Below, piece after piece: positions 2,749 to 53,371 of a DNA stretch of 59,636 nt. The notes beneath the pieces are model-generated. The model saw only the letters and a program-made list of their open reading frames with translations. It was not told the origin of the DNA and made no database searches. The stretch spans positions 1-59,636 of the forward strand of contig JAKAKT010000100.1 of the NCBI GenBank assembly GCA_021813385.1, written 5' to 3'. Every line of letters starts with the position of its first letter. Within the stretch, counting starts at the first letter, position 1. A program made the translations under genes and the position numbers. This DNA is from Microcaldota archaeon (GTDB lineage Archaea; Micrarchaeota; Micrarchaeia; Burarchaeales; JAKAKT01).

Positions 2749-2759
2749 ACAAACGAACA

Positions 2760-3648: not shown

Positions 3649-3710
3649 GCTTTTTTCTTTTTTCTTTTGTTTTTTAGTATTTTAATATAATAGTTCAAAG
3701 GGGGGATATT

Positions 3711-4301: not shown

Positions 4302-4323
4302 CGTCCCCATTTTTTGGGTTTCT

Positions 4324-4381
4324 GGAATTTGCAAAATTCCAACTGGCACGGCAAAGTTCTCTTGAACTTTGCCTAATGCCA
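4324..4381 (+). promoter_or_regulatory. Tandem hairpins between the last archaellin and the flaC-like gene
   Basis: GGAATTTtgcAAAATTCC and GGCAAAGTTC-TCTT-GAACTTTGCC (10-bp perfect stem). Confidence 0.5.
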
Positions 4382-4400
4382 AGTCCCAGGGGGTTCGCTA

Positions 4401-5910: not shown

Positions 5911-6052
5911 CGCTACGGGGGCTGCGCCGGACTCCCCCTTCCCAAGACCACATTGGGTGCGCCCGGCGCCCCCGGTTCATTTCTGGGCCGCGGGGGTTCT
6001 CCCCCCGGCTTCAGAATGGTTCCATCTTATTCTTGGATCCTGAGAAAGTAGC

Positions 6053-7294
6053 TCATTCCTCAGGCCCGTTAATAGTCCTCTTCATCTCTTCAATATCATA
6101 CGCATGGCCTATCGTACCCTTGTCATCATCCACCGCCCCCCACTTTCTCGAAGTTGCAACTGTTTCTACCCTAGGGGGCTTCTTACCCTCGAGCTTGCTA
6201 GAGGCAATTCCTGCGAAAATACCGCTCAAGACCAGCATCGGGAGGGTGATGGACAATAGCTTAGATGCAATTCCGAGCCCCCCGGCTAATGCCATCTGCA
6301 CGATGATGGCCGCTGAGAGGCCCTTTGGGGCAAGTCCCGCCAGCCAGAAATTGAATCCCTCGTCTTCCAGCGAGAACTTTATCGAAACTGTCCTCAATAC
6401 CAGTACGATGACCCACAGTAAGGCTCCAGTCAAAACGAGACCGGAGTCAGCACCTGATACCGAAAGGCCCGTATAAAAGAAGAAGAAAGTCCCACCGGCC
6501 ATAAGGACATCCTCCTGAAATTTCAGCAAGCCCTCGAATTTTGCCTTTGCCTTGAGCAATCCCGCGTTTCCCATCGCGAGGCCGAAGAAAAATGCGCTTA
6601 TCATCCCGCTGTTTGGGAATATCACCTCACAAAGGGCAGCTATCCCGAGCACAATCGAAAGAGTAAGTGCGTCCCTGTGCGGGAAATCCGAGGCAAAGCG
6701 CATGAGCCTAACCCACACAATCCCGGCAAGGAGGCCGAAGACTAGCCCGAAAGCGAAAGCTTGAACTACCGAAACACCAGACGAGAGCCCATAGACGGTG
6801 AGTGCCAGAATGACAACAACCGCCTCGGTGAGAGAACTCTCGAGCATAATCCCATCAGCCACGCCATCGGCCAGATTCACTTCATCCGTTATGTGGAACA
6901 CGAAAAACGAACAGATGCTCGCCCCGATGGCCCCAACCAAAAGGGCCCCGCGGAAGTCGAACCCGAGGAAGACATGCGAAAACGCCCCAATGGCGAGCAG
7001 GGTTATGGGGATTGTGATGAAAGAGAGCCGCACAGAATGGGCATACGCCGCGATTCCGCGCAAATTCAGTTTGAGCCCGCAACTGAAAAGAATCGAACCC
7101 AAAAGTATGGGCGCTGCCAGAGTCACAGTTTCGAGAAGAGCCCCGGGCATCTTGCTCCCAAGAATAGAGAGGGCTGCTCCGAGTATCACGAACAGGGTCC
7201 CTGGCGGGAACCGCGTCAACCTGAAAACCGCCCAGCTCACGAAAACCAGTGCAATCGCAGAAGCGACTATTGCGAATACCTCGAAAGCGCCCAT
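6053..7294 (-). CDS. Cation/proton antiporter (CPA family)
   Basis: About 12 hydrophobic segments; antiporter-like GFDFRGALLVGAIGASICS and LAGLAPKGLSAAIIVQMAL segments. Confidence 0.8.
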   Translation of the reverse strand: MGAFEVFAIVASAIALVFVSWAVFRLTRFPPGTLFVILGAALSILGSKMPGALLETVTLAAPILLGSILFSCGLKLNLRGIAAYAHSVRLSFITIPITLLAIGAFSHVFLGFDFRGALLVGAIGASICSFFVFHITDEVNLADGVADGIMLESSLTEAVVVILALTVYGLSSGVSVVQAFAFGLVFGLLAGIVWVRLMRFASDFPHRDALTLSIVLGIAALCEVIFPNSGMISAFFFGLAMGNAGLLKAKAKFEGLLKFQEDVLMAGGTFFFFYTGLSVSGADSGLVLTGALLWVIVLVLRTVSIKFSLEDEGFNFWLAGLAPKGLSAAIIVQMALAGGLGIASKLLSITLPMLVLSGIFAGIASSKLEGKKPPRVETVATSRKWGAVDDDKGTIGHAYDIEEMKRTINGPEE

Positions 7295-12002: not shown

Positions 12003-15000
12003 ATGAAGAAGATTCGGGCAGCCCTCATCGAAGCCGACTACGTCACGAAGAATGATAAAGCGATAGTCCGCCTCACGCTGAAACGGAAGAAGTTCTTCAG
12101 GCTCTACGACGACAGTTTTGAGCCCTACTTCTACCTGCAGGCTGACGACCTTGGGCGGGCGACGGAATTGCTCGGGCAGCTCTCAGCCGAGGACAGGGGC
12201 AAGACAGTCAAGCTCAAGCGAATCGAGAGAGTCAAAAAACTTTTGCATAGCAAGGAAGCCGAGCTCCTGAAAGTCTTCTGCTTCCACCCCTCGCACGTTC
12301 CACTGTTCCGGGACAAGGCCAGGGAAATCGGGACCCCCTACGAGCACGACATCCGTTTCGCCCGCCGCTACATAATAGACAAGGGCCTCACCCCATTCAA
12401 CATACTCGAGATTGAGAAAGAGGGCAAGATGATTAAGTCTATCCAGGACACGGGCGAACCCGATACCCGGCTCAAGACCCTCGCCTTCGACATAGAAACC
12501 TACAACCCGCAGGGCCTTCCCAGGGAGAGGAGCGATCCGGCCGTTATGATAAGCTACGCTTCCAAGGATGAGGATGATAGGAAGGCCGGGGTCCTTACTT
12601 TCCGCGAGACGGGGAAGCCTTTCGCGAAAAAATTCGGAACCGAAAAGGAGATGATTGAGGGATTCCTGAAACTGGTCAAGGATTTCGACGCAGAACTCCT
12701 TCTGGGCTACAATTCCACTTCGTTCGATTTGCCATATTTGAAAGCCCGGGCTGAGGCCAATTCGATATCGTTTGGAATAGGGCGGGACAACACCTCATTC
12801 CGGGCGAGGAGAAGGGGGATGTTCAACGAGGCAAAGATAACCGGCAGGCTGCACATCGACCTCTACCCCGTTGTCCGGTTCCTAGGGATTATCGGCGCCC
12901 TTCGGATTTACAAGTTCACGCTCGAGAACGCATATGCTGAAATAACCGGCAAGAAAAAACTGATGGTGGAGAAACTAGGAATATGGCAGATGTGGGACAG
13001 CGATTCCGGAAGGGGGAAGCTTGCCGACTATTCGCTCGGGGACGCCCAATCCACAATTGAAATCGGGGAGCGCGTCCTCCCGATGGAAATTGAGATTTCG
13101 AGGCTTGTCCGGGTTCCCCTGTTCGAGGTTGCCGGCATCTCAACCGGCCACCTGGTCGAACTCTTCCTCATCCAGAGTTCCTACCAGAAAAACATCGTGG
13201 TCCCAAGCAGGCCGAGGGAGGAGGAAGTCCAATCGAGAGAGGGCTATATGCTCCAGGGAGCTTATGTCCGCATCCCGAACCCAGGAGTCTATGAAAATAT
13301 GGCAGTGTTCGACTTCAGGGGCCTGTATCCCTCGATAATCACCTCCTACAACATCGACCCGGACATGATAAACTGCGACTGCTGCACAGAGCAGGAGTCC
13401 AAGGTCTCTCCCTCGGGCTCCCGTTTCTGCACCAAGAGGACCGGCCACATACCGGAAGTCCTCGGGAACATCGTCGAGCACAGGACTCAGATAAAGAGGA
13501 AAATAAAGTCCATCCCGAAGGATTCTGAGGAGTACGCCATCTTGAATGCCCGCCAGCAGGCGCTCAAGGTTCTTGCTAACAGTTTTTACGGGATGCTCGC
13601 CTATGCCCGCTCCCGCTGGTATTCAAAAGAATGCGGGGAGGCGGTAACATCTTTCGGCCGCCACTACATCCAGGAGACCGCGAAAAAAGCCGAAGAAACA
13701 GGATTCGAAGTGCTTTACGGGGATAGCATCACTTCCGACAGATTCGTAACGATTCTCGACCAGCACGGGATCATCCAGATACAAAACATCGAGGAGTTTT
13801 TCGAGAAATACAAAAATAACGCAACGAAACGAGGGGAAAAGGAAGCAATCCCGCTTACGGGCTTCAAAGCACTTACGCTTAATCCGAAAACCAAGGGGTC
13901 CGAGTGGAAAGAAATAACCGAAATAATCCGGCACAGGGCGAACAAAAAGATATTCCGGATTTCGCAGAAATTCGGCGAAACGATCGTGACCGAAGACCAT
14001 TCGATAATGGTTGAGAAAGGAGGAAAACTAGTCGAAGCAACCCCGGAAGAAATGGGGGGGAATCCGTTTGTGAAGATAAACTCGGTCCCCGAAGTGAAAC
14101 GGATGCAGCAAATAGATGTCTACGGGTACTTGAAGGGAAATTCATACAAGATAACCTATAAGGGCAAAGAGAAAACAATCTCCGCAAAAGCCGACAGTAG
14201 CCACGTATGGTTCAACTGGACCGTTCGCAAGAACCCCGTAAAAGTGAAGCGCTTCATACCGCTCGATAGCCCGGATTTCGAAAGCCTTTGCAGGCTCCTT
14301 GGCGCCTACATCCCGGAGGGCAGTTCATCTACCCCAGAAACCACTTCGAGCAGATGGGGCGCTTCAATATCATCGGCAGACACCCGGTGGCTGGAGCAGT
14401 TGAAGCAGGACTACGAAAAGCTATTTGCCAACGCCCGCTCGTGCATAATCAAGTCCACCAAAAAAACCCGTGATCTGGAATATCTTACCCAAACATCAGT
14501 AAAACGCATCCGATACGAGGACCACACACATAAGCTGCAGATGATGAATCAGCTTTCAGCCATCCTGTTCAAGGCTTTTTGTGGGCAAAAGTCCATTGGC
14601 AAAAAGATCCCAGATTTCATTTTTCACGTTCCCGAAAAGCACAAGCTCCTACTGCTTGAGCAGATGTTAAAGGGTGACGGAACCCACACGGTGAACAACA
14701 AGCTCGGATATTCGAGAGAGTATATAGAAAGAAACTTCAGATACGCGACCCGTTCCCTCGGTCTTGTGGGCGGGCTTTCCCTCCTCCTAACGCAACTTGG
14801 GAGGAACCACTACATAACTTACCGGCCCGGCAAGAAACTTTACACTCTAGGCACTTCTGACCGAACGAACCAGAGCTTCGAGACGAAGTTAATCGAGGAG
14901 AAGTACAGTGGCTACGTGTATGACCTGTCCGTCAAAGACAACCACATGTTCGTTGATTCGTGCGGGCAAGTGTTGCTCCACAACACGGACTCGATTTTCC

Positions 15001-15782
15001 TCCTTTACAAGGGCAAAACAAAGCAGCAGGTCCTCGATTTCCTAACAAAGACCAACTCTGAACTTCCCGGGAACATGGAGCTCGAGCTCGAGGGCTTTTA
15101 CTCAAGAGGCCTATTCGTCACGAAGAAGACCGCCGGGAAGGGCAAGGAAGGGGAAACAGGGGCAAAGAAGAAGTATGCGCTCATGGGCGAGGACGGGAGC
15201 ATAAAGATACGGGGGTTCGAGCTTGTCCGGCGGGACTGGTCCCCGATTGCTAAGAAGACGCAGCAGAAAGTCCTCGAGGCGATTCTCAAGGATGGCAGCA
15301 AGGAGAAGGCAGTTTCGATTGTGAAGGAGACTATCGAGGCGCTCAGGGCAGGCTCGGTCCCGCTTGCCGACCTTGCAATCACGAACCAGATAAAGAAGAA
15401 GTTCGAGCAGTACGAGATTATCAGCCCGGAAGTCATCGTTGCCGAGAAACTCAAGGAAAAGGGAACCCAAGTCCCAATAGGCTCGATAGTCGAATACGTT
15501 GTCACTAGGAGCGGCTCGGTTTCCGAGGAATTGAGGCGAAAAATCGATGCGAAGAGAAGGGAGATTAGGCTGAAGAAAAACGTTAAAGCGAAAGATGACT
15601 CACGAGCCACCGAGCCAATCTCTTTCAAGGCCGAATCCCTCGAAGCCGCAAAGGACTACGATGCCGATTACTACATAAATAACCAGGTGATGCCGGCAGT
15701 TCTCAAGATTCTCAAGGAGCTCGGGTATGAAGAGGATGACCTGAAGTTCAAGGGCACGCAGAGCTCGCTCGGGGACTTCTAG
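12003..15782 (+). CDS. polB: Family B DNA polymerase precursor containing an intein
   Basis: Exo I TLAFDIETYNP, DFRGLYPSII, KVLANSFYGMLAYARSRWY, split YGD/TDS catalytic motif. Confidence 0.95.
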   Translation: MKKIRAALIEADYVTKNDKAIVRLTLKRKKFFRLYDDSFEPYFYLQADDLGRATELLGQLSAEDRGKTVKLKRIERVKKLLHSKEAELLKVFCFHPSHVPLFRDKAREIGTPYEHDIRFARRYIIDKGLTPFNILEIEKEGKMIKSIQDTGEPDTRLKTLAFDIETYNPQGLPRERSDPAVMISYASKDEDDRKAGVLTFRETGKPFAKKFGTEKEMIEGFLKLVKDFDAELLLGYNSTSFDLPYLKARAEANSISFGIGRDNTSFRARRRGMFNEAKITGRLHIDLYPVVRFLGIIGALRIYKFTLENAYAEITGKKKLMVEKLGIWQMWDSDSGRGKLADYSLGDAQSTIEIGERVLPMEIEISRLVRVPLFEVAGISTGHLVELFLIQSSYQKNIVVPSRPREEEVQSREGYMLQGAYVRIPNPGVYENMAVFDFRGLYPSIITSYNIDPDMINCDCCTEQESKVSPSGSRFCTKRTGHIPEVLGNIVEHRTQIKRKIKSIPKDSEEYAILNARQQALKVLANSFYGMLAYARSRWYSKECGEAVTSFGRHYIQETAKKAEETGFEVLYGDSITSDRFVTILDQHGIIQIQNIEEFFEKYKNNATKRGEKEAIPLTGFKALTLNPKTKGSEWKEITEIIRHRANKKIFRISQKFGETIVTEDHSIMVEKGGKLVEATPEEMGGNPFVKINSVPEVKRMQQIDVYGYLKGNSYKITYKGKEKTISAKADSSHVWFNWTVRKNPVKVKRFIPLDSPDFESLCRLLGAYIPEGSSSTPETTSSRWGASISSADTRWLEQLKQDYEKLFANARSCIIKSTKKTRDLEYLTQTSVKRIRYEDHTHKLQMMNQLSAILFKAFCGQKSIGKKIPDFIFHVPEKHKLLLLEQMLKGDGTHTVNNKLGYSREYIERNFRYATRSLGLVGGLSLLLTQLGRNHYITYRPGKKLYTLGTSDRTNQSFETKLIEEKYSGYVYDLSVKDNHMFVDSCGQVLLHNTDSIFLLYKGKTKQQVLDFLTKTNSELPGNMELELEGFYSRGLFVTKKTAGKGKEGETGAKKKYALMGEDGSIKIRGFELVRRDWSPIAKKTQQKVLEAILKDGSKEKAVSIVKETIEALRAGSVPLADLAITNQIKKKFEQYEIISPEVIVAEKLKEKGTQVPIGSIVEYVVTRSGSVSEELRRKIDAKRREIRLKKNVKAKDDSRATEPISFKAESLEAAKDYDADYYINNQVMPAVLKILKELGYEEDDLKFKGTQSSLGDF
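13725..14984 (+). mobile_element. Intein (420 aa) with LAGLIDADG endonuclease domain, in polB YGD/TDS
   Basis: Begins Ser (SITSDRFVTI), TEDHSIMV block B, LLGAYIPEGS and LLEQMLKGDGT dodecapeptides, ends VLLHN followed by TDS. Confidence 0.92.
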
Positions 15783-28861: not shown

Positions 28862-30472
28862 TTGCGTGACTCCATGGAAAATTCAGATGTTTACGAAGAG
28901 CTGAACAAAAAATGGAAATCCACCTGCCACGTCCTCCTCGGGGGCGGGGTAGGCGAGCTCTCGTCATTCGCCGAATGGCTCAAGTCGGACCGCCCGCACG
29001 CCAGAACCGCGAAGTCATCGCTCAGCGGGAATAACGTGTCCTTCTTCGACTCGAGCTATCCGAAAAATGCGAGATGGATAGGCTTTGAGGAGATTGACTA
29101 TTCCGCCGCGGAGCAGCCGATAGACATCAACAGGATAAAGGACATCGACTCCATCCTCGAGGCCGTTTCCGAGAGGATCAGGTATTGCGGCAACATACTG
29201 CTAGGCGAATTCAGCGGCATCGAAAAGAGCACCACCATTCTGGATTCCCATTACGTGTATGCATCGCAATGGGTCTCGAAGTCAAAGTACATAGCCTACA
29301 CGACCAGCTGCGTATTGGGGGAGTGTCTTTTTGGCGGGCATTGGGTGAGCGGGAGCTACCAGATACGCTCGAACACTTTTATGAGCCACAGGTGCTTCGA
29401 AGTCGTTAAGGTTGACTACTCCTCCGACTGCTACTACTCCCACGGGCTTTCGGCCTGCCACGACTGCCTCTTCTGCTTCAACCTCAAGTCGAAAAGGAAC
29501 GCAATCGGGAACAACCCGCTTCCGAAGGACAAGTACCTGGCGCTCAAGGGCAAGCTTCTTTCCGAAATCAGGGAGGAACTCGAGAAGAACAAGCGGGTGC
29601 CCCACGTCTACGGGTTCGTGGCCGATGCGAAGCTGGACTATTCCAGAATGAAGGAGGCATTTTCCGGGATGCCCGGCCAACCCGAAACAAAGGCAGACCT
29701 CGCGCCTGTTGAGAAGGCGTTCACGAGCGCGGCGCGAGTGATATTCGAGACCGAGCTCAAGGGAATAATGAAATATTCGGAGTGGCTTTCTAGGAACATC
29801 CCGACGTTTGAGAACGGGGCTTCCTGCGCCTCCGGGAAGGGCCTGCTGGTTTCCGATTACGGGGATTTCCTGCAATTCCCGAGAAACCGTCTCATAAACG
29901 ACGCGGAGGCCGACTGGATTGGTCAGCGACTGACGCTTTCGGACGATGAGTGCGGATGCCTGTCGTTCTCAAGCGCCCCGGAATCGCTCTCGCCTATCGC
30001 CTACTACGACCCCGAATGGCAGGTGGGGAAACTCAACAACAACTTCGAATGTCCCGTCTCGGTGGACGTCTCCAACTCATACAGGACAATCATCGGAGTC
30101 TCGTCAAAGAAGTGCGCCATAGGGAGGTGGCCCAGGGAATCCGACAACATTTTCGGCCTGCACCGCGTCCGCCTTTCCTCCTTCTGCATCAGGTGCTTCC
30201 ATTCGGAGAAGCTGCAGAGGTGCTTCGAAGTCCTCGAGGGCAGGAACTGCAGCGACTGCCTCTATTGCCACAATATCGAGAATGTCCACGACTCGATGTT
30301 CTGCTTCAACACCAAGAACAAGAGGTATGCGATTGGGAACGTCGAGTTGCCCAAGGAAAAATACCTGGAGATAAAGAAGAGGGTTCTCGAACAACTCAAC
30401 GACGAGCTCACGAGGACCAACGCGATTTCGCTTTCAATCTTCAACCTCCTGGACAGGCCAAAAAAACAATAA
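28862..30472 (+). CDS. Duplicated Cys-rich protein of unknown function; paralogue of 49221-50846
   Basis: Two repeats ending DCxFCFNxKxKRxAIGNxxLPKxKYLxxKxxxL. Confidence 0.75.
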   Translation: MRDSMENSDVYEELNKKWKSTCHVLLGGGVGELSSFAEWLKSDRPHARTAKSSLSGNNVSFFDSSYPKNARWIGFEEIDYSAAEQPIDINRIKDIDSILEAVSERIRYCGNILLGEFSGIEKSTTILDSHYVYASQWVSKSKYIAYTTSCVLGECLFGGHWVSGSYQIRSNTFMSHRCFEVVKVDYSSDCYYSHGLSACHDCLFCFNLKSKRNAIGNNPLPKDKYLALKGKLLSEIREELEKNKRVPHVYGFVADAKLDYSRMKEAFSGMPGQPETKADLAPVEKAFTSAARVIFETELKGIMKYSEWLSRNIPTFENGASCASGKGLLVSDYGDFLQFPRNRLINDAEADWIGQRLTLSDDECGCLSFSSAPESLSPIAYYDPEWQVGKLNNNFECPVSVDVSNSYRTIIGVSSKKCAIGRWPRESDNIFGLHRVRLSSFCIRCFHSEKLQRCFEVLEGRNCSDCLYCHNIENVHDSMFCFNTKNKRYAIGNVELPKEKYLEIKKRVLEQLNDELTRTNAISLSIFNLLDRPKKQ

Positions 30473-30983: not shown

Positions 30984-31673
30984 ATGAAAAGGGAAGACCT
31001 CGCATATTTTGTTGGAGTTTTACATAGCGACGGATGCGTCTTCACCTACAGTTTCAGAAACAAAACAAGACACAGATATATTTTGGATGTCGGAAAAAAA
31101 TCTCTGCCAATGCTAAAAAAGGTCAATCAAATCTTTCGTGAAGAATTCGGCAGAACGCTCAAAATCCGCAAAAAATTCCATAAAAATGAAAACCCGACAT
31201 TTTTGATAGAAGTCGACATCGCGAATTTAAGAGGCGCATTTGCCAGATTGAGCATTGATAAAGAGAAATTAGCGCCCTGGATTAAAACTAATCAACATTT
31301 CTTTTGTGCATATCTTGCAGGCGTTATAGACGGTGATGGTGACATCTCTATCAAAAGACCGCAATACCCTCAGTGCCGGGTCAGAATTACTGCTGGCGAA
31401 AAACTACCCAGATTGATGAAACTAATACGTCGGCACCTCAAATGCCCCGGCAATATTGAACGGGCCATTGTTTCTACATATACTTTGCCAAGGCCAAAAA
31501 TAAAATTTGGCATAGGATATCGGCACTGTTTTTACTTGTCTCCGAAGAACATGAAAATATTCAAAAAATTTGTCTTGCCGCATATCAATATAATGCACAA
31601 ACGACGGAAGTTGCTCGAGTTTTACACGTCCAGGAAAAATGCGCTATCCGTTGCGCCACGGGCCCGCGAGTAA
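30984..31673 (+). CDS. Standalone LAGLIDADG homing endonuclease
   Basis: AYFVGVLHSDGC and AYLAGVIDGDGDISI dodecapeptides. Confidence 0.88.
   Translation: MKREDLAYFVGVLHSDGCVFTYSFRNKTRHRYILDVGKKSLPMLKKVNQIFREEFGRTLKIRKKFHKNENPTFLIEVDIANLRGAFARLSIDKEKLAPWIKTNQHFFCAYLAGVIDGDGDISIKRPQYPQCRVRITAGEKLPRLMKLIRRHLKCPGNIERAIVSTYTLPRPKIKFGIGYRHCFYLSPKNMKIFKKFVLPHINIMHKRRKLLEFYTSRKNALSVAPRARE
31640..31665 (-). other. tRNA-Arg-like 5' half (positions 1-26), antisense to the HEG 3' end
   Basis: GGGCCCGTGGCGCAACGGATAGCGCA; D-stem GCGC/GCGC; TATA-like TTTATAAAT about 25-32 nt upstream; no matching anticodon/T-arm follows. Confidence 0.6.
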
Positions 31674-38461: not shown

Positions 38462-40159
38462 TTAGTGGGCCCCTACGGGCGCACCCGGGGACGGCAACAG
38501 CATCATCAACGTTGCCCTCGACACGATGGCGACAAGCGAGCCAATCCACACAAGCGCGACGAAGTGAATCATCGAGTTGAGCATGTGCCCTCCGTCCATG
38601 AACCGGACTGCGATGGCAGAAAGCAGTGCGTTTATGACTAGAGTCATAATGAGGAGCACACTCACAATCTGCATGCTCGATGCACTGGGAATCGTGATGA
38701 TGGAGTTCAGCACGCTCGAGGGCACGTCGAGCTTCGAGTAGATGTCGTTCATGTATATGACTACCCCCGCTGAGACATACAGGCAGAATGCCACTACGGC
38801 CTGGACGCCGTAAACTATCCCTATGAAACTGGTTGTCGAGTGATACCTCTCCCTCCTAAGCATCTGCAGGGTCATGAAGTTCTTGCTGATGATTTCGCTC
38901 GTGGTGTCCGGCCTCCCTCCCATCGATAGCGTCTCAACGAACATGTCCGTGAACTTGTTTATGAGGAAGCTTCCGCACTCAATCCTGTACAGCATCCAGG
39001 ACCTCGAGTTGCTAATCAGCGTCTTGATTCTCTCGTAAAGGTGCCTTATGGGCACGGTAAGCTCACCGAAATCGTGGAACGTCAGAACTTTCAAGGAGTC
39101 CTTCACTATCCCGCCGCGGGCAGCAGCCCCAAGCCCGAGAGAGATTATGAACTCGACATAGAACTGGTCCCGCCTTTTTATCTGCTCCTCAATGCTCCTA
39201 GCGATGTAGCCCACTACCACGAGCGGCGTGAGCACTATCGCAATCAGAATCTCAAGGGGGATATAGTTAAGGAAGAAATTTGATAAGAGCGATAGCAAAA
39301 TGCACCCTACTGCAGAGACGAGGAATGCCGGCATAAGCTCGCTCCTCATCTCCCGGTTCGAGAAGCTTTCGTACCACACCTTGTCGTTCGGAAGCACGCT
39401 TTTAATGTAATAAATGACCCCTACTTCGGAGGCCACGAAAAGGAACACGACCAGGAGCATCATCATCGCAGGGTCTATTGCGACAAGGTAGGGGATGATG
39501 ATGGCGAACGATATGAGGAACACGAGCGTTATCACGATTGACAGGTATATCTCCTTAAGCACGTCTATGTCATAGAGGGAGCCCTTGTACTTTATCGAGT
39601 AGTCATTCATCACATAATTCTGCTCGTCGAGCAAAAACTCCTCTATATTCTCACCGGAATCGAGCCCGTTCGCGAACCTGTCCAGGAAGTCGGCGAACAT
39701 AATGCTCGGGGTGGTTTTCGCCTTCAGCCTGCATGAGTCCGAGAGGGTCACATGCCACACCGCAAACCGCATGTATATCTCCCTGCAGGCGATAGCGAGA
39801 GCCCCGTACTCCTCCTTGGTTGACATAACCCTGAAGAGGTCGGCAGGCGGGGAGTTTGATGTCGACAAAATGCCTATGTTCGTGATGAAGAAGTGCATAT
39901 TGTCCTCAATGTTGTGCTTTATCCCCTCGGCCTGGAGCAAGGGATATACGAAAATTATGATTATGGCCAACGCAGGAACAACCGCAAGGAGGTATATTGC
40001 GAGAGGGCCGAAAAGGTCCGGAAGAATGACGATAAGTATGATGGGGACAACGAAGCTTGTGACTATCACCGGGATGGCGAACGTGAGGACGTACTGGTAT
40101 ACGCTCATCCCCATTGCCTGTATGAGCCCAATATAATCGTCAGTGTCCATCGAAACCAC
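38462..40159 (-). CDS. flaJ: FlaJ/TadC-like archaellum membrane platform
   Basis: Multi-TM T2SF-type protein; start adjoins the FlaI stop. Confidence 0.8.
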   Translation of the reverse strand: MVSMDTDDYIGLIQAMGMSVYQYVLTFAIPVIVTSFVVPIILIVILPDLFGPLAIYLLAVVPALAIIIIFVYPLLQAEGIKHNIEDNMHFFITNIGILSTSNSPPADLFRVMSTKEEYGALAIACREIYMRFAVWHVTLSDSCRLKAKTTPSIMFADFLDRFANGLDSGENIEEFLLDEQNYVMNDYSIKYKGSLYDIDVLKEIYLSIVITLVFLISFAIIIPYLVAIDPAMMMLLVVFLFVASEVGVIYYIKSVLPNDKVWYESFSNREMRSELMPAFLVSAVGCILLSLLSNFFLNYIPLEILIAIVLTPLVVVGYIARSIEEQIKRRDQFYVEFIISLGLGAAARGGIVKDSLKVLTFHDFGELTVPIRHLYERIKTLISNSRSWMLYRIECGSFLINKFTDMFVETLSMGGRPDTTSEIISKNFMTLQMLRRERYHSTTSFIGIVYGVQAVVAFCLYVSAGVVIYMNDIYSKLDVPSSVLNSIITIPSASSMQIVSVLLIMTLVINALLSAIAVRFMDGGHMLNSMIHFVALVWIGSLVAIVSRATLMMLLPSPGAPVGAH

Positions 40160-41773
40160 TCATACTCTGAATGGGAGAGCATTAATGCCGCCGCGGTAGA
40201 ACGCAACAATCGTATCCATCACTGCGAAGTAATCGAGGATGTTCTTCTCCACCATGATTTCAATTATCCTCGTTCGAGTATCAAGCTCGTCATATATCTT
40301 TCGCGGGTCGAGATAGCCCGCCTTGGGCGCTATCTTATCCTCAAGAATATAGCTGTTGTTGAGGCCCCCGAACTTGTGGGCATCGGTCGAGGCGTCCCAG
40401 GAAAACATCTGCCGCGTCACGACACCTCCCGCATCTTCGTTATAGCCCTCAACCTCCTCAACGGCCGTGCATCGCCTGAGGTATTTCCCTTTTACATAAA
40501 CTGCCTGCAGGAACATCGCCACGTTAAGGTTGTCCATGAATGTCAGCGGGACGTTTATCGGGTCACCGGCGAGCCTCTGAATCATCCTCCTGATACTTGA
40601 GGCGTGGAAGGTTGCCATGACCGAGTGCCCTGTCTGCATTGCCTGGAAGGCAACGAGCCCCTCCTTGCCTCTAATCTCCCCGACAATTATGTAGTTTGGC
40701 CTAGACCTGAGGGCCGCCTTCAGTATGATGAACATGTCCACCCTTCCTTCCTCGGGCCCGCTCTCCCTCGTCAGCAGCTGCTGCCAAAGCTGCTGCGATG
40801 GTCTCACCTCGGGGGTGTCTTCAGCGGTGAGTATCTTGGCATCCGGGTGGACGAAGACCAGCAGTGCATTCAGAATAGTGGTCTTCCCGCTCGCAGTCTC
40901 CCCGGCCACGAAGATGTTCATCCCGTTCTCAAGGCAAAGCCAGAGGTATGCGACTATCTGCGGGTTGACTGAGCCGAATTTTATCAGCTGGATGATGCTC
41001 GTCGGGATTGTTGAGAATTTCCTTATGGTGAAGCTGGAGCCCCTCAAGCTCACGTCCTCAGCATAAATGATGTTTATCCTGGAGCCATCAGGCAGGACTG
41101 AGTCGGCTATGGGCTTGGCAATGCTCACGGGCCTGCCTATCCTTTCGCTCAGGTTCCTAAGGAAGTCCCTCAAAACCTGGTCGTTCTCAAATGTAAGGTC
41201 TGTCTCCACAGCCTCGAAGACCTTGTGGATGACCCGGATGTTCCTTGCACCCACCTCGTGAATATCCTCAATGTAGGGGTCGCTGAGAATAGGCTGGAGC
41301 ATCGACTGGCCGATGACATCCCTTCGCACGTAATAGATGAACTTTTCGTATTCCTCATCGGTCACATAGACTTTCCTGACTCCGAAGTCCGTTATGGCGA
41401 GTGCGGATTTCCTCACGCTCATATTGAAAAGCTTGATGAGGGTGGCCTCGAGCTCCTTATCCCGCTCGGGCACCTTTTCGCGCGGTGCATTCTCGAGAAT
41501 TATATCGAGAATCTCATGGTATTTTTTCTTTTCCGGGTCCGTGAGCTTAGGCTCGATTGCGAAATACCTGTTCTGCTTTGGGTCCTTTAAGATATGCACG
41601 AACACCTTGTCCTCAAGGGTCGGGTAGATGATGTTCACGTTCTGCTCATCGCTCATCTCCCTCGGAATCTTATCATAGAACCTTGGGGCCCTCATGCCCT
41701 TTGATTTGAGCGCTTCCAGGTATAGCCGAAGGTGCGGGTATTTCTTGATAGCCTGTTCAAAGTCAATAGCCAT
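40160..41773 (-). CDS. flaI: FlaI-type secretion/archaellum motor ATPase
   Basis: FVAGETASGKTTILNALL Walker A; IIVGEIRGKEGLVAFQAMQTGHSVMATFHA. Confidence 0.9.
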   Translation of the reverse strand: MAIDFEQAIKKYPHLRLYLEALKSKGMRAPRFYDKIPREMSDEQNVNIIYPTLEDKVFVHILKDPKQNRYFAIEPKLTDPEKKKYHEILDIILENAPREKVPERDKELEATLIKLFNMSVRKSALAITDFGVRKVYVTDEEYEKFIYYVRRDVIGQSMLQPILSDPYIEDIHEVGARNIRVIHKVFEAVETDLTFENDQVLRDFLRNLSERIGRPVSIAKPIADSVLPDGSRINIIYAEDVSLRGSSFTIRKFSTIPTSIIQLIKFGSVNPQIVAYLWLCLENGMNIFVAGETASGKTTILNALLVFVHPDAKILTAEDTPEVRPSQQLWQQLLTRESGPEEGRVDMFIILKAALRSRPNYIIVGEIRGKEGLVAFQAMQTGHSVMATFHASSIRRMIQRLAGDPINVPLTFMDNLNVAMFLQAVYVKGKYLRRCTAVEEVEGYNEDAGGVVTRQMFSWDASTDAHKFGGLNNSYILEDKIAPKAGYLDPRKIYDELDTRTRIIEIMVEKNILDYFAVMDTIVAFYRGGINALPFRV

Positions 41774-45324: not shown

Positions 45325-45400
45325 CATCCAGCTCCCACCCACGCCCTTTTTTAACCTTTAAGGAGAAGTCTTACTCTGTCGGGCTAGGTTTGTGGTCCAT

Positions 45401-46810
45401 ATGAGGCAATTCAAGATTTACGGGATATCCTCCACACTTATGGTGACAGTGCTGGCAGTCGGCTTCATAATCTACATAGTGTTCAACGACATCCTCGCTT
45501 TCCTCGTGTGGCTCCTGGTAGTTTTCTTCGTTGTCATTCTTGCTTATACCCTTTCCCCGAAGATTTTCAGGAAGATGTCCGATACAGTCGAATTGCGCGA
45601 TACAGCCATAAGCTCGAGGAAGACCGAGATAGCGGGGCTGATATGCCACGAATGCAAGACCGCGAAATCGCTCATCGAGAAGGTTTCAGCGGAAATCGAC
45701 ACCGCGAGCGCAAAAGGCGAGCTCGACAGGCTCGGGCAGGAGCTCGCTTCAATGAAGTGCTGCAGCTCATCTTTCGAAGTAATGCCTGACGAACTGGCTA
45801 ATGTCGACATGACTTTCCTCACCACCCGTTCTGCTGAAGTGAGGGACAGGCTCGGGGCGATGAAGCGGGCGCTTGCGGACAAATACAAGACCGTTTCAGA
45901 CAAGCGGGTTGCCGAATACGAAGTTGCGATGAAGAGCCTGCGCGAAGCAGGATACGGGATGGGCGGGCTTTATGCGAAATTCGAGGCTGAGCTGTCGAGA
46001 AGCGCCTCAACCCTTGACGAGATGGCTGAGAAGGAGGGGGAGCTGTCAGACCTCCTGAAGGATGCCCTAACCGACTGCCTTGAGGAGGCGAAAAGGATTG
46101 CTTCTGAAGAATCGGGCAGGAAAGGCGCATCCGAAGTCAGCTATGCACTCGGGAAACTAACCATATCGGACGGAGAGCTGATAGAAGCCGCCTCTGAACT
46201 CGCAGCGATGAGGAAAAAGCTCCAATCAATAATGGGCGGGGATTTCTTCGCTGCGAAGGAATCAATCATCGACTCGATGGATGCGGTCCTCTTAGCTGCT
46301 AACGGCCCGGGATTTTCCGATTTAAGGGAAAAGCTCGCGAAACTGCGCGATTCAGTGAACCAGCTTAAGGATCCCGGGAAGCTAGGCAGGCTCAAGGAGA
46401 CCGAGAAAGAATACCGGGAGCTGGCCAAGACATCCATTGAGGAACTGTCGGCAAAAGCACTTGCGATGAAGGACGAGCTCGATTCCTATAAGCCACCAAG
46501 GGAAATGCAAGCGAAGCTGCCTCAAAAAATAGTTGCACCTGGGGGCGGCACTTCAGAATTCACCAAGAAGATTTCCTCAATGCTAAAGGAGCTCTCTCCG
46601 GAAATCGAAGAGCTAATCCGCAACGTAAAAATAATGAGGAGCTACCAGAAGGCCGAAAGGCTCATCGACGCGAGGCTTGCCGAGAACAAAAAAGTCCAAG
46701 CCAGGGATTTAGACATAAAATACCCGGAGGTATTTTTCATGCTCTACAAGAAGAAGCACCCAAAAGTTAAACTAGTGGAAGGGCCTGAACCAAAACTTTT
46801 CGAGGAATGA
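45401..46810 (+). CDS. Two-TM long coiled-coil protein
   Basis: N-terminal paired hydrophobic segments, then about 380 aa predicted helical/coiled coil. Confidence 0.65.
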   Translation: MRQFKIYGISSTLMVTVLAVGFIIYIVFNDILAFLVWLLVVFFVVILAYTLSPKIFRKMSDTVELRDTAISSRKTEIAGLICHECKTAKSLIEKVSAEIDTASAKGELDRLGQELASMKCCSSSFEVMPDELANVDMTFLTTRSAEVRDRLGAMKRALADKYKTVSDKRVAEYEVAMKSLREAGYGMGGLYAKFEAELSRSASTLDEMAEKEGELSDLLKDALTDCLEEAKRIASEESGRKGASEVSYALGKLTISDGELIEAASELAAMRKKLQSIMGGDFFAAKESIIDSMDAVLLAANGPGFSDLREKLAKLRDSVNQLKDPGKLGRLKETEKEYRELAKTSIEELSAKALAMKDELDSYKPPREMQAKLPQKIVAPGGGTSEFTKKISSMLKELSPEIEELIRNVKIMRSYQKAERLIDARLAENKKVQARDLDIKYPEVFFMLYKKKHPKVKLVEGPEPKLFEE

Positions 46811-46913
46811 AAATGCCAAAGAAAATTAGGGACGAAGCGGGAGCGAACGGCTCGAGAACGAGCGAGCCGGGAATGAGGGAGCGAACCGAATTAATGTTTG
46901 TTTGGTTGATTTG

Positions 46914-48365
46914 ATGGCGAAAAAAGAGCGGGAAGGGACAGAGTGGGGGATGATTGCATCGGGCGAGGGAGCCAACAAGATAGCAATCCAGTACCTCGCG
47001 GAATTCCAGAGCAAATACATGAGCGACAGGATTCTTTTGTTGAATACTACGGCATCCGACATCCGGCCTGAGAAGGCATTTGGCGCGAGGCTGACTCCGG
47101 AGTTCCAGTCGATTCTCCAGAAGATAAAGAAGGAGAAGACCTGCATTTTCGGTTCTGCCCCATCGGGGGCAGGGAATGTCTGGAAGATAGGCGAAGAAGA
47201 GGCTGCGAAGGACTTCGAGACAATCAGGAGATATTTCGCGAACTCCCAGCTCGCCCAGGCAGACGTCATACTGGGCTTAGCAACACTTGGTGGAGGGACA
47301 GGGAACGGCAGCTTGCCTTACATCATAAGCCAGCTCAAGAACAAGATGCCGACAGCAGCCCAAAGCAACTACATCTCGCTCGGCATCTGGCCGTTGAACT
47401 CAGAGGCCTCCCAGAGGCACTTCAATGCGGTATGCGGATTCACGAGGCTCCTTAAGTATGGCGAAGGGGGAAAAAGGAACAGTGAGCTCGTGCTAATTGC
47501 TCACAACAGCCAGGTTGCGGACCTCGTGGGGTTGCAAGCACAGGGCCCTGCCCAAGACAAGTTCTACCTCATAAACCGCGAAATCATAAAGGCGATGGAC
47601 ATGATGGTGGCTCCGAGCGGGAAGGCTTCGGAAGCGACAATCGATGTGGCGGATTACTACCAGCTCCCGACGTCATTCGGAGTCTACCACTTCACCCCGT
47701 GCATCTCGTGGGACAACGACCCCGATGTCATCGGCCTCGAGGCAGGCGTGGAACTCGCCCTCAGGAGCCCGATGTGCCCCCTCGAGCCGAAGACTGCGAC
47801 GATGGCATACTTCATAGTCCGCGCCCCGGAGAAAAAGCTCAGGGACGGGACGTTCACACAGGAGGGTCTCGAGGATGCAGCAAGGAAGCTCTCCTCCAAA
47901 TTCATGGCTGGGAGCCAGGGCGGGCTTGTGCGCTACTGCAGCCTCACGTCGAAAGAAGGAGACGGGTTTGACGCCATGGTCCTCCTGGGCGGCTTCAGCC
48001 TGAAAAAATTGCTCGCAGGAAGCATAGGGAAATTCAAGTCATTCTCGGAGAACCTGAAAAGAAGCGGGGATGCACTCGAGCTCAAGGATGACGAGCACCC
48101 GAACATACGGGCGGCAATCAAGCCAGAGGAGCTTGAGATGATTGAGGGCTGGCTCCGGGACTATTCCAAGAAGACCGAGGAACTCATAAGCAAGGCAAGG
48201 AGGGGCGGCGGGCCTGACGAGGAGATGCTGGAAGGCTGGATGAGGGAAGAGGCTAAGGCAAGGCCGAAAGCCGATTCGCAAAGCCAAGCGCCCAAACCAG
48301 GCGACCAGGCGAAATCGCCAAAGGGCCCCGCACCCCAAAGAAAACCAAAAAAGAGGAACGGGTAA
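46914..48365 (+). CDS. Divergent FtsZ/tubulin-superfamily protein 1
   Basis: IASGEGANKIAIQYLAE; LGLATLGGGTGNGSLPYIISQLK (T4 loop); ATIDVADYYQLPTSFG (T7-like). Confidence 0.75.
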   Translation: MAKKEREGTEWGMIASGEGANKIAIQYLAEFQSKYMSDRILLLNTTASDIRPEKAFGARLTPEFQSILQKIKKEKTCIFGSAPSGAGNVWKIGEEEAAKDFETIRRYFANSQLAQADVILGLATLGGGTGNGSLPYIISQLKNKMPTAAQSNYISLGIWPLNSEASQRHFNAVCGFTRLLKYGEGGKRNSELVLIAHNSQVADLVGLQAQGPAQDKFYLINREIIKAMDMMVAPSGKASEATIDVADYYQLPTSFGVYHFTPCISWDNDPDVIGLEAGVELALRSPMCPLEPKTATMAYFIVRAPEKKLRDGTFTQEGLEDAARKLSSKFMAGSQGGLVRYCSLTSKEGDGFDAMVLLGGFSLKKLLAGSIGKFKSFSENLKRSGDALELKDDEHPNIRAAIKPEELEMIEGWLRDYSKKTEELISKARRGGGPDEEMLEGWMREEAKARPKADSQSQAPKPGDQAKSPKGPAPQRKPKKRNG

Positions 48366-48369: not shown

Positions 48370-49224
48370 ATGCAGCTCATACTGGTTATCGTCCTCCTTT
48401 CCCTTCTCGCCCTGATAATGCTCGCAGTGCTCGCCCTCATCTTCTTCGGGATAAGGAAATCAAAGGACACGAGAGTTCAGTTCTCAGTGCTGGTTGTTTC
48501 GAGCTCAGGAGCCCCGCTCGAGGGAGTCGATGTGAAGCTCGGTGATGAGATTGCGGTGACTGATTCATACGGGAAAGCCAATTTCGCAGCCGACCCGGGG
48601 GAGAAGGAGCTCCTCATAATAACTGACGGGCATGCGGAGTTCAGGCAAAAAATCAGGGTCGGTGAGGAGAAGCTTTTCCAGGCGAGGCTCGCAAAGGACA
48701 AACCGCTCCCAGAGGCAAAGGAGCTTGAGGAAGCGATTTCGTCTGCGAGGAGGGGGAGGCAGGAGATAGGCAACGGCTACAACCCCGCAATCCCAGACTA
48801 TCTGTTCAACATCTGCCTGGCGGTCCACAAGCTCGCGATTGATGAGGCGAAGAGCGAATCTGACTCAAAGGTCCGCTCGGAATCGCTGAAAAGCGCCGCA
48901 TACACGGTTTCCCAAACGTCGAAAGGGATGATTGAGAGAAGGAACCTCTCGCTCTATGCGAAGGCGAAAGGGAGGAAGACGAGGGCAGTCGAGTTGCCGG
49001 CCCCGCGCTCTCCCGACATATTCTCTGCAAAGCAAAAGCTCGGCCAGGTCGACCTCCTAATCACGCACAGCACCGGGAAAAGCTCAATCTTCCCCCCGCT
49101 GATTCTCTGGAAAACTGCGCAGAAGCTCCTTGCGAATCCGACAGTTTTCAACATACGGCTCGCGACATTTTTGCTCGATTCAGCTGAGAAAATGATTGCC
49201 GAACTTGGGGATTATCTGGTTTAG
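48370..49224 (+). CDS. Membrane-anchored protein with carboxypeptidase-regulatory/PEGA-like domain and helical C-terminus
   Basis: N-terminal TM; VSSSGAPLEGVDVKLGDEIAVTDSYGKANFAADPGEKELLI. Confidence 0.65.
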   Translation: MQLILVIVLLSLLALIMLAVLALIFFGIRKSKDTRVQFSVLVVSSSGAPLEGVDVKLGDEIAVTDSYGKANFAADPGEKELLIITDGHAEFRQKIRVGEEKLFQARLAKDKPLPEAKELEEAISSARRGRQEIGNGYNPAIPDYLFNICLAVHKLAIDEAKSESDSKVRSESLKSAAYTVSQTSKGMIERRNLSLYAKAKGRKTRAVELPAPRSPDIFSAKQKLGQVDLLITHSTGKSSIFPPLILWKTAQKLLANPTVFNIRLATFLLDSAEKMIAELGDYLV

Positions 49225-50846
49225 TAGCCAATCCTGACTCCTCGCTCCGCACCGACATCATATATGCTCAAGCCGAGCGCCTTTTCCCTCTCGAGAGTCT
49301 CAGCTATCTGAGCAAGGAGGCGCTTCTTAAGCGCCAAGTATTCCTCCCGCGGATATTCAACATTGCCGACAGCGTAGCGCAGGCTTTTCGCATTGAAGCA
49401 GAACATGCACTCCTGGAGGTTCTCGCAATTGTGGCAGAAGTAGCAGTCGCTGCAGGTGTTCGAGCTGTCAACCTCGAAACATCGGTTTAGCTTGCTTGAG
49501 TTATGGCACTTAATGCAGAATTTTGAATGAAAAAGCAGCTGGGAACCGAAAACATATTCGGAATTTCTCGGCCAATAGCAATAAGCCACATATCTACACA
49601 CATAGGCCAGCGAACTCCGAAAGGCATGGGAAGAGTTGTTGCCATAGTTGCTGCATTCCACAATGTCGAAATTGTTGGTGCCATGCACATCCTCGGTCGT
49701 CGTGTATTTCACGCCCTTCAGCTTTTCCCTTGCATTGGAAAAATCAAAATCCAGCAGGTCCGATTCCGAGATACTGCATTCCCCGAGTTCCAACGCCTCC
49801 TCCAACCCCACTGCGTTGTCTTTGATAGCAGCGAACGCAGGCACGGCAGCCAAGTATATGTCCTTGCCACTCACAGCGGATTTCGATGGTATGACACTAT
49901 CCACGTGCTCGCTCAGCCACTTCTCGAATGCAACGAGCGGAGCCAGTTTTTTGCCGAACAAGATTCCGCACGTATCTTTAAATGCGGAGTTTAGCTCGTC
50001 TGAAGGCCCTTTTTTGGAAACGCCGGGTTTGTTGGAAAGTGTGGGTTCGTTTTTCTTCAGCTTCGGCGCCGTTCCCGGGGCCGCGATTAGGTCCACTATT
50101 CCCGGAATCGTTTTTTTCTCCTTAAGCATCTCCCTGATTTCTCCAACGAGCTTATCCTTCAAGTCCAGGTATTTGTCTTTTGGAAGAGAAAGGTTTCCGA
50201 TGCCATAATGCCTGTTTCGCAGATTAAATGAGAACATGCAATTGGAGCACGACCTTAAGTTGGCGGTGAAATAACAGTCGGCCGAATCGAAGGTATTGAG
50301 GTTTTCCATGGAACGACTGAGCTGATAGATGTAATAACCGGCTATGACGAACCTGGACCCGACATCTTGGCTTATGCCGAAAGCGTACTCGGTATGGCGC
50401 GTTTGGTTGGAAAATGCCACGAATCTGCTTCCTTCATGGACCGTTCGTGACTTATAGACGAATGAAGAATCAATGCACTTGTCTGAAAGTTCAATCTCGC
50501 TGGAGTTTCCGAGAACCACGTCCCCGGCATAGTAAAATTTTTCCCTAAGCGCGGCCAGTATCGAATCGATGTCCTTTACCTGGTTTATGTCAAGCCTCGT
50601 GCCTTTGTCCATTTCATGGTACTCGGCATTCTCATCGTTGCTGATGTATTTTGCGTTGTCGTCCATTCCCTTGACTGGGGAGAACACCACCGGCTTTCCG
50701 GATATTGCGGATTTTTTTATGCTAAGCCCCCCAGCGTATCGGCCGAGGTATTTTTCAAAATCTTCGAGCCCCCCAATCTCATCTCCGAGCAGGGCCCTGC
50801 AGACATCCTCCCAGGCTTTTTCTAAAAGCTCGCGACTACGGTCCAT
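49221..50846 (-). CDS. Duplicated Cys-rich protein, paralogue of 28862-30472
   Basis: FCIKCHNSSKLNRCFEVDSSNTCSDCYFCHNCENLQECMFCFNAKSLRYAVGNVEYPREEY. Confidence 0.75.
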   Translation of the reverse strand: MDRSRELLEKAWEDVCRALLGDEIGGLEDFEKYLGRYAGGLSIKKSAISGKPVVFSPVKGMDDNAKYISNDENAEYHEMDKGTRLDINQVKDIDSILAALREKFYYAGDVVLGNSSEIELSDKCIDSSFVYKSRTVHEGSRFVAFSNQTRHTEYAFGISQDVGSRFVIAGYYIYQLSRSMENLNTFDSADCYFTANLRSCSNCMFSFNLRNRHYGIGNLSLPKDKYLDLKDKLVGEIREMLKEKKTIPGIVDLIAAPGTAPKLKKNEPTLSNKPGVSKKGPSDELNSAFKDTCGILFGKKLAPLVAFEKWLSEHVDSVIPSKSAVSGKDIYLAAVPAFAAIKDNAVGLEEALELGECSISESDLLDFDFSNAREKLKGVKYTTTEDVHGTNNFDIVECSNYGNNSSHAFRSSLAYVCRYVAYCYWPRNSEYVFGSQLLFHSKFCIKCHNSSKLNRCFEVDSSNTCSDCYFCHNCENLQECMFCFNAKSLRYAVGNVEYPREEYLALKKRLLAQIAETLEREKALGLSIYDVGAERGVRIGY

Positions 50847-50994: not shown

Positions 50995-51756
50995 ATGGAC
51001 GAGCAAATCCTCAGGAAGCTGGGCATGACAACTGGAGAGATAAGAACTTATCTCGCGATGCTCGAGCTCGGCTCAAGCACAACTGGCCCGATTGCAAATG
51101 CGGCCCAGATTTCAAGGTCGAAGGTTTATGTGGTTCTCGATAGGCTCGAGAAAAAAGGGCTTGCCTCCCACGTTGAACAGAATGGGATGAAATACTTCCA
51201 GGTCGCTGACCCAATAAGGATAAAGAGCTACATACGCGAGAGAGAAGAGGAACTGAAAGAAATAGGGAAGGAGTTCGATTCCTCTGTAGAAAACCTAAGA
51301 ACGCTCTATAAGGAAACTGGAAGAGTCAAGTCAGTTTCAGTTTACCAGGGGCTTAAGGGGCTCCAGACCGCGCACGAGCACACTTACCTTAAAGTGAAGA
51401 AAGGGGAGACCTACGATTACCTTGGCGGCCCGCGCTTCCAGCCAGAATCGCACCACCGATATTGGAAAAAAGACCACCTAAAGAGAGTTGCAGCCGGAAT
51501 AAAATGCAGGCTCTTGTTCAACAAGGGGACCCCGCGAGAAACGCTTAGGAACAGGAATTCGTTCTGGGGCTGTGATGCGAGGTATATGCCAATAGACATA
51601 TACTCTCCTGCGTATTTTTTGGTTTACAAGGATACGGTTATGATGACGGTTTCAGAAGAGAACCCAATCGTCATAGAAATAGTAAGCAAAGAAATCGCCG
51701 AGGCTTTCAGCACTTATTTCGAGGAGTTCTGGAAGAGGAGCGTTCCTTTCAAGTAG
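50995..51756 (+). CDS. TrmB-family regulator
   Basis: LRKLGMTTGEIRTYLAMLELGSSTTGPIANAAQISRSKVYVVLDRLEKKGLA. Confidence 0.88.
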   Translation: MDEQILRKLGMTTGEIRTYLAMLELGSSTTGPIANAAQISRSKVYVVLDRLEKKGLASHVEQNGMKYFQVADPIRIKSYIREREEELKEIGKEFDSSVENLRTLYKETGRVKSVSVYQGLKGLQTAHEHTYLKVKKGETYDYLGGPRFQPESHHRYWKKDHLKRVAAGIKCRLLFNKGTPRETLRNRNSFWGCDARYMPIDIYSPAYFLVYKDTVMMTVSEENPIVIEIVSKEIAEAFSTYFEEFWKRSVPFK

Positions 51757-53371
51757 CTTTCTTTTTCTTCTTTTCCGCTTTCGGCACAAGCTCGACCGTG
51801 CAGGTCGTCGAATCGCCCTCGCACGCCAATTCGGTCTCATAAACCTTGTAGTTCGGGTGAATGACGGTGAGCTTGTGGGCCCCAAGCTCGACCTCGAGGG
51901 AGCCCATCCCGCCCTCGCTTGTCCGTTCACTCTTCCTGCCGATAACCACTTCCGCATCCTTAATGGGCTTTCCTTCAGAAACCACTGTCACTTTGACTGT
52001 TCCAGTCCCGCCTTTTTTCGCCTGAAGCCCGACCGAGATGGCGGAGTGCTTCTCCACTTGCAAGGCTCCGATGTATGGCTCATGGTTCGGCGACAAGATT
52101 TTCATCTGGTGCCTCCCCTCCTTAAGTGCATAGAGGCTTCCAGCAGGCCTCCGTATGCCCTCAATCTCGATTTCAGCCTTTCCATCGGAGTCAGGAACAT
52201 CCACCCTGGTAAGGAACATCCTTGGTATTGACAAGGCATCCGCCTTCTCCTGCTTGTAGTGCGTCGCCTGCGAGCGGAGCTGCGCGATGCGCTCGACCTT
52301 CTCCTCCGGATAGGTGAAAAGGAGGACCGTAGAGACGATGTTCCGCTTTGTCACCGAGACCCCGAGATGGGTCTGCTTCATCGCGGAGCGCTCTGAAAGG
52401 AAAGCCCTGATGATGTCAATGGGAGCAAGCTCGCCCGAGCTCTCAAGATAATGGGGCGGGAGCCTCAGGAGGGCGAGATTCTTCTCGCATTCTTCAGGCT
52501 TTGCGCCCTCGACACTGAGCTTCAGGAACGATTCGTAAAGGAGCTTTATCACGTCGATTTTCTTCCATCCGCCGATAGGGACCAGGTAGTTGAACAGCCC
52601 CCTCGCCCTTTCGCTCGAGCGGGCAAGGCAGGCATAAGCAACTCGCCCCCGCAGGGTGGTCGCAGTTATTATGTCATTTATGTCGATTACAGGCGGGTTG
52701 CCTGCGAAGGCCGCCGGGTTTATCCGTTCAGTAGCGCTGCCGAGGGCGAGTTCGATTATTGCCCGGGCCACATAATCGTTGTATCTCCTGTAGGCATTGG
52801 CCATATTTCCCGTGTAAGCAATTCGCTGATTGTCCACGAGAATAATGGAATTTGCGATTTCTGAAAGCCTTTTCAAGCTAACGTATGCGTTGCTAGCAGC
52901 GAGGCTCCCCTCTTCGCCAGCAGGCAAAACGGCGATTGCGATGACGGGAATTCCGAGCGATTTGAAAGCAGCAGCCACCACCGGCCCGGCCCCGCTCCCT
53001 GTGCCGCCCCCGAGGCCGAAGAGCACGAAAGCGCAGGAAATCTTCTTCGCGTCGACTGTGTTCTCGAGGAAATGCCCGGCAATCGCTTCCTGGAGCTCCC
53101 CGTAATGGGCGAGCGCATCACGCTCGGCCTTGTCCCTGTTCTGGCCATACCCCCCTGCAATCAAGTCATCGAAGTTCTTCTCGCTCCCATTAACGAATCC
53201 GTTCTTTGAAAACCCCAGCCAATTCTCTCTCGAGATATTCTTCAGGTTAAGCAGGTCGCTCGTTGCCGAGTTTATCGCAAGGGGCTTTGAAGCGGCCCAT
53301 ACGTTCTTCTCCCAGAGCACAGAATCGAGGATTCCCCCCCCGCACTGCCCGACGGAGACAAACGCATACAT
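51749..53371 (-). CDS. Divergent FtsZ/tubulin-superfamily protein 2 with C-terminal carboxypeptidase-regulatory/PEGA-like domains
   Basis: MYAFVSVGQCGGGILDSVLWEKN; VLFGLGGGTGSGAGPVVAAAFKSLG; PPVIDINDIITATTLRG; VVSEGKPIKDAEVVIGRKSERTSEGGMGSLEV. Confidence 0.85.
   Translation of the reverse strand: MYAFVSVGQCGGGILDSVLWEKNVWAASKPLAINSATSDLLNLKNISRENWLGFSKNGFVNGSEKNFDDLIAGGYGQNRDKAERDALAHYGELQEAIAGHFLENTVDAKKISCAFVLFGLGGGTGSGAGPVVAAAFKSLGIPVIAIAVLPAGEEGSLAASNAYVSLKRLSEIANSIILVDNQRIAYTGNMANAYRRYNDYVARAIIELALGSATERINPAAFAGNPPVIDINDIITATTLRGRVAYACLARSSERARGLFNYLVPIGGWKKIDVIKLLYESFLKLSVEGAKPEECEKNLALLRLPPHYLESSGELAPIDIIRAFLSERSAMKQTHLGVSVTKRNIVSTVLLFTYPEEKVERIAQLRSQATHYKQEKADALSIPRMFLTRVDVPDSDGKAEIEIEGIRRPAGSLYALKEGRHQMKILSPNHEPYIGALQVEKHSAISVGLQAKKGGTGTVKVTVVSEGKPIKDAEVVIGRKSERTSEGGMGSLEVELGAHKLTVIHPNYKVYETELACEGDSTTCTVELVPKAEKKKKKAT

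Follow-up and report, generated by a model that had tools for sequence, protein, structure and literature searches.

Two divergent tubulin-superfamily proteins, here called TubA and TubB, are probably co-dependent GTPases of a membrane-tethered archaeal cytoskeletal module that acts outside ordinary division, as judged from sequence comparison. Both are encoded on a 59,636-nucleotide contig of a Microcaldota archaeon (JAKAKT010000100.1; this whole stretch is the window, and coordinates are window positions unless a locus is given). The names TubA, TubB, TubC, CC and g1 to g10 were coined in the present analysis. The usual scheme for archaeal tubulin relatives has the classes FtsZ1, FtsZ2 and CetZ, with a loose group of "others". 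Part of these "others" now resolves into two well-supported families, which stay together in several groups of archaea and are tied to particular membrane proteins. Because cultivated haloarchaea carry the module, Halobacterium salinarum R1 among them, its role is directly testable.

The TubA gene and its GTPase core

The original prediction had described a "tubulin-like protein 2" with a tubulin-style N-terminus, a GGGTGSG loop, an IDxND T7-like motif and extra C-terminal beta domains. The open reading frame and the quoted motifs are real, and map as follows.

51749..53371, minus strand: TubA, CetZ-like tubulin-superfamily protein with two C-terminal beta domains, 540 aa
52247..53371, minus strand: tubulin core of TubA, residues 1-375, matching the core-only orthologs
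53303..53362, minus strand: T1 segment FVSVGQCGGGILDSVLWEKN, residues 4-23
52991..53011, minus strand: T4 loop GGGTGSG, residues 121-127; G-G-G-T-G in 21/21 TubA
52673..52687, minus strand: T7 segment IDIND, residues 229-233; D230 and D233 in 21/21 TubA

A tubulin-superfamily GTPase core had been proposed, and it was recovered: Pfam PF00091 matches residues 4-185 at 1.2e-19 (71.8 bits, cut-off 33), and the motifs are conserved in a full-length ortholog. Alignment of the GTPase site, one of the checks suggested, found G-Q-x-G in T1, GGGTG in T4 and the acidic pair in T7 intact in all 21 TubA sequences, with an invariant T6 asparagine. The N-terminus is not specifically tubulin-like, as had been claimed. 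Residue Q9 is common to 21/21 TubA, 11/11 CetZ and beta-tubulin, while position 10 is C in 11 of the 21 TubA, A in eight and G in two. Because this position varies within the TubA clade, the tubulin-like C of GQCG is neither a family trait nor a tubulin signature. Nor is the protein closer to tubulin: it shares 24-26% identity with CetZ and 15% with beta-tubulin, and a sequence comparison with solved chains puts Haloferax CetZ2 and CetZ1 at the top, followed by Methanosaeta CetZ and FtsZ.

Structure prediction, also suggested as a check, gave a mixed answer. The TubA model, built from four sequences, contains a partial GTPase core, and the three top Foldseek matches are CetZ2, CetZ1 and CetZ, with low TM-scores and the second domain poorly modelled; residues 211-375 have a pLDDT below 50. 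The TubB model reaches a pLDDT of only 36. Given both results, the case for the second tubulin domain is one of homology, not of structure. A gene for a TrmB-family regulator (50995-51756, plus strand) is convergent with TubA and overlaps its 3′ end by 8 bases.

TubB and the other partner genes in the window

A protein numbered 2 implies a first one, and the window does encode a second divergent relative, TubB, next to two genes for membrane proteins; that it belongs with TubA to one conserved module was beyond the view of the original prediction.

45392..46810, plus strand: CC, membrane-anchored coiled-coil-like protein, 472 aa; recognised by family profile and hydropathy
46902..48365, plus strand: TubB, second divergent tubulin-superfamily protein, 487 aa; P-loop GGGTGNG, T7 IDVADYY
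48370..49224, plus strand: membrane partner, 284 aa; N-terminal TM segment, one CarboxypepD_reg-like beta domain, helical domain

Window TubB scores slightly under the PF00091 cut-off of 33 (32.7 bits, 1.1e-7) and is 48% identical to its ortholog at locus L028; the TubB of the haloarchaeal locus L118 reaches 48.1 bits. CC combines one or more N-terminal membrane segments with a helical body. The membrane partner matches CarboxypepD_reg in Pfam at 0.001 and a profile of its homologs from a phylum sampled by 23 species (that of L028; the 23-species phylum below) at 4e-19. TubA, on the opposite strand and with other genes in between, is not co-operonic with TubB. One intervening gene (49221-50846, minus strand, between the membrane partner and TubA) encodes a Cys-rich protein with repeated CHNC/CxFCFN motifs, which has a paralog at 28862-30472 (plus strand; hmmsearch 5e-92) and no match in Pfam or NCBIfam. 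In L027, a locus in another genome of the window's family, it is missing from that place, and a homolog of the membrane partner adjoins TubA.

TubB might be no active GTPase at all. Together with TubC, a third tubulin of haloarchaea (L118:5911-7533; also L117, L119, L120 and L130-L136; annotated FtsZ), it would then be a catalytically dead scaffold or regulator of a TubA homopolymer, and there would be no heteropolymer. The degenerate P-loop of TubC (TKGTGCG, 7/7) points that way, as do a variable T6 residue in TubB and its T4 loop, GGGTGNG in 17 of 18 sequences, where N replaces the S/T of GGGTG(S/T)G. The acidic pair of T7 is nevertheless intact in TubC and present in 18/18 TubB, one E included, and the motif alignment shows GGGTG, the T6 N and this pair kept in essentially all TubB members. 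We consider this reading rather unlikely.

Phylogeny and class assignment

In a maximum-likelihood tree of 62 rows, TubA (support 100/100), TubB (99/97), TubC (100/100), CetZ (100/99) and FtsZ (100/100) form separate clades. The references were CetZ and FtsZ sequences and, for tubulin proper, one beta-tubulin on a very long branch. TubA, with a stem of 1.17 changes per site, falls outside the CetZ clade, so that the phylogeny, which could have placed it with ordinary FtsZ or CetZ, gives it a clade of its own. Beta-tubulin did not join TubA; its grouping with TubB was discounted as a long-branch placement. The FtsZ equivalog model TIGR00065 gives TubA 64 bits against a threshold of 295, and PF13809 (Tubulin_2) has no match to window TubA or TubB and matches two relatives below cut-off only. 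From its sequence TubA is thus a divergent tubulin-superfamily GTPase family, neither ordinary FtsZ nor CetZ. L115 and one gene of L116, tried as FtsZ candidates, were rejected as such, since the tree places both in CetZ.

Orthologs and linkage outside haloarchaea

Scanning genome contigs with the single TubA sequence gave no match, and a two-sequence TubA alignment gave three loci. One ortholog (G001, L027/L008), from Candidatus Micrarchaeota archaeon isolate LacPavin on a 6,175-base contig, is full-length with both beta domains, conserves all TubA motifs and has 45% identity along the aligned length; this genome, a gapped MAG, gave no TubB match. The other two (L028 and L029) are 47% identical and end ahead of the beta domains; orthologs of this core-only kind, of 399-404 aa, are 45-48% identical to the TubA core. 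Downstream of TubA in both come first CC and then TubB, and homologs of these two genes are in the window.

The TubB profile detects TubB in 15 species of the 23-species phylum, and TubA is found in the same 15, whether full, truncated or as a contig-end fragment. The other eight have no TubB, and the TubA profile gives only CetZ/FtsZ-range scores there. In 14 of the 15 the genes are ordered TubA-CC-TubB and spaced by -4 to +20 bases; the remaining contig (G320, L061) begins at TubB and is too short to tell the order. Co-occurrence by chance would have a probability of 2e-6 if species were independent, which they are not, and this value is only a rough guide. The TubA-TubB distance correlation of 0.92 is expected from shared inheritance alone. 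Adjoining the module in this phylum are a membrane protein with a beta-propeller, a TM segment, a CarboxypepD_reg-like domain and a helical domain, and a divergent pair made up of g10 and a secreted protein that has NEW3-type domains. Elsewhere, TubA and TubB stand on separate contigs in two genomes: G468, which also has CC, and G572, where the neighbours of both genes are unrelated. A separate G468 locus (L106:8071-13295, minus strand) carries two further divergent tubulin relatives with three genes with hydrophobic N-termini between them.

The window's genome is the only one among 301 of its phylum with a TubB match, and TubA occurs in two of 60 near relatives, both of one family. Transfer into the window's family would therefore be the simpler reading. 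In the tree, window TubA and TubB are both placed nearer to the 23-species phylum than to haloarchaea.

These data bear on whether TubA could be a divergent CetZ that works alone in cell shape, its neighbours being incidental. CetZ2 and CetZ1 are its top PDB matches by both sequence and fold, its T1 has the CetZ-type GQxG, and a TubA-like gene occurs without TubB in G345. We nevertheless find this improbable: TubA lies outside a well-supported CetZ clade at low identity, the 23-species phylum carries CetZ beside the module (L115, L116), and TubA strictly co-occurs with TubB and CC and is tightly linked to them.

Haloarchaeal clusters

A tblastn search against plasmids returned orthologs at 31-34% identity in Halobaculum, Natrinema and plasmid pHS2 of Halobacterium salinarum R1. 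They belong to ten-gene clusters in which g2 is TubC, g4 is TubA, g7 is CC with an extra C-terminal domain and g8 is TubB, the last annotated as hypothetical, in H. salinarum R1 included; membrane segments are predicted for g1, g5, g6, g9 and g10. In four such clusters (L117-L120) the best profile E-values are 5.7e-83 (TubB) and 4.6e-23 (CC). Among 394 Halobacteriota genomes sampled, nine have TubB; CC adjoins it in all nine, and TubA is at the locus in eight.

The presence of the module on five haloarchaeal plasmid records raises the idea of a TubZ-like partition or maintenance system of plasmids or other elements, rather than a host cytoskeleton. In several sampled genomes, however, the contig with the module is 2.8-3.1 Mb long and hence a chromosome; in G313 it measures 1.9 Mb. 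Searches of phage and viral collections, made for a viral or phage origin, gave no match. The partners, moreover, are membrane proteins with ectodomains, and such proteins are not known to be needed for type III partition. A partition role is very improbable.

The C-terminal beta domains of TubA

The beta domains that had been predicted are real and, as had been said, unusual.

52034..52219, minus strand: TubA beta domain 1, residues 385-446; from the model, common only to the L027/L008 ortholog
51788..52006, minus strand: TubA beta domain 2, residues 456-528, CarboxypepD_reg/PEGA-like; from sub-cut-off Pfam matches, model and profile

Both are modelled as all-beta, with block pLDDT mostly 83-91. 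Pfam matches to the region stay below cut-off (PEGA 0.0013, CarboxypepD_reg 0.039), and on TubA such domains are limited to the window's family, i.e. window TubA and the L027/L008 ortholog. A profile of these two C-termini was run against all ORFs of the loci. It matches the membrane partner of the window at 2.8e-5, the partner membrane proteins of L138 at 1.5e-11 and 3.8e-9, and the CC of L138 at 2e-4; matches to g9 proteins from the 23-species phylum are weak, at best 4e-4. The L138 partners themselves exceed the Pfam cut-off for CarboxypepD_reg and PEGA (about 1e-19). Two L138 ORFs (2611-4335 and 4340-6508) that had been taken for tubulins were rejected, as their match to the TubA profile covers beta-domain columns only; they were excluded from the tree and are now taken to be membrane proteins with beta domains.

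In the membrane partners the beta domain comes after a TM segment and basic flanking residues, and because of this placement it is predicted to be cytoplasmic. The profile matches suggest that the beta domains fused to TubA are a cytoplasmic adaptor to the membrane partner. That TubA has gained domains of the partner's type hints, by Rosetta-stone logic, at contact between the two; since the domain class is common, this is no more than suggestive. The original proposal that these domains bind surface or membrane partners therefore survives, as a suggestion, for the membrane and probably not for the surface. CarboxypepD_reg/PEGA-type domains are indeed common on archaeal surface proteins, yet TubA lacks both a signal peptide and a TM segment (its sole hydrophobic stretch, 131-149, lies inside the GTPase core) and the related partner domain is predicted inside, which makes binding to outside surface partners barely credible. 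PEGA proteins are also found in Borgs (PMC9605863).

A model for the module

We propose that TubA and TubB bind GTP and assemble longitudinally, with the two acidic residues of each T7 loop placed against the nucleotide that the adjacent subunit binds. The filament would be tethered to the cytoplasmic side of the membrane, and connected to outside domains, by CC and the membrane proteins with a beta domain. In the window's lineage, the two partner-type beta domains fused to TubA would probably serve as a built-in adaptor. Such a module probably organises the envelope or cell shape and not division, because the genome has four other PF00091 loci with FtsZ-level scores. These loci (L001-L004, on contigs C47, C68 and C11 of G000) include two in tandem.

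More tentatively, TubA and TubB may form a heteropolymer within a machine that spans the membrane and bears extracellular domains for sensing or adhesion, built from two non-sister tubulins independently of alpha/beta. If true, this would be an archaeal cytoskeleton coupled across the membrane.

Comparison with known systems

CetZ (Haloferax CetZ1/CetZ2, PDB 4b46/4b45; Methanosaeta CetZ, 3zid) shares with TubA the GQxG of T1, the GGGTGSG of T4 and the acidic T7 pair, and is the top structural match, at low TM-scores. It differs by always having alanine where TubA has C, A or G; unlike CetZ, TubA forms its own clade, is linked with TubB and membrane genes, and has a beta-domain fusion. Two different subunits encoded together recall the bacterial and eukaryotic tubulins and BtubA/BtubB. 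TubA and TubB are not sisters, unlike alpha/beta tubulin, and have 15-16% identity to beta-tubulin. Other tubulin likenesses (GQCG in TubA, SGAGNNW in most TubB outside haloarchaea) are superficial and vary within each family.

FtsZl1 (Makarova and Koonin 2010, PMC2875224; Tubulin_2, PF13809), a divergent FtsZ relative with predicted membrane remodelling, resembles the module in its coiled-coil and membrane-associated partners. It has its own coiled coil in the same protein, whereas the module has a separate CC, and Pfam scans of the cluster genes found no vWA, kinase or GTPase partner, unlike FtsZl1 operons.

Santana-Molina et al. (2023, PMC9871819), in the sections used here, report Halo.Tub, tubulin-like paralogs "in a quasi-tandem disposition" amid unknown coiled-coil genes, as well as CetZ-like proteins in Altiarchaeota, and N-termini resembling eukaryotic ones. 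Haloarchaeal TubA and TubC, compared by description only, may well be the Halo.Tub paralogs. Absent from those sections are TubB, the constant TubA-CC-TubB order and the beta domain common to TubA and its partner, as is any mention of the 23-species phylum and the window's family as carriers. Patchy non-canonical tubulin-superfamily proteins of archaea, DPANN included, are covered by Brown and Duggin (2023, PMC9856176), who may list individual members of the present families; the portion of their paper considered here describes no gene module or families. Individual proteins of the module have probably been seen before. A search of the openly accessible literature returned nothing that describes TubB, the module or the beta fusion.

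Other features of the window

An Rfam search of the window gave zero matches. A family-B DNA polymerase ORF of 1259 aa (12003-15782, plus strand) has its YGDTDS motif split (YGD|SITSD...HN|TDSIF), as by an intein, and a free-standing 229 aa ORF (30984-31673, plus strand) has the look of a LAGLIDADG-type endonuclease. Several archaellin/pilin-like paralogs lie near one window end (183-4301, plus strand), and a secretion ATPase and membrane protein pair is encoded at 38462-41773 on the minus strand.
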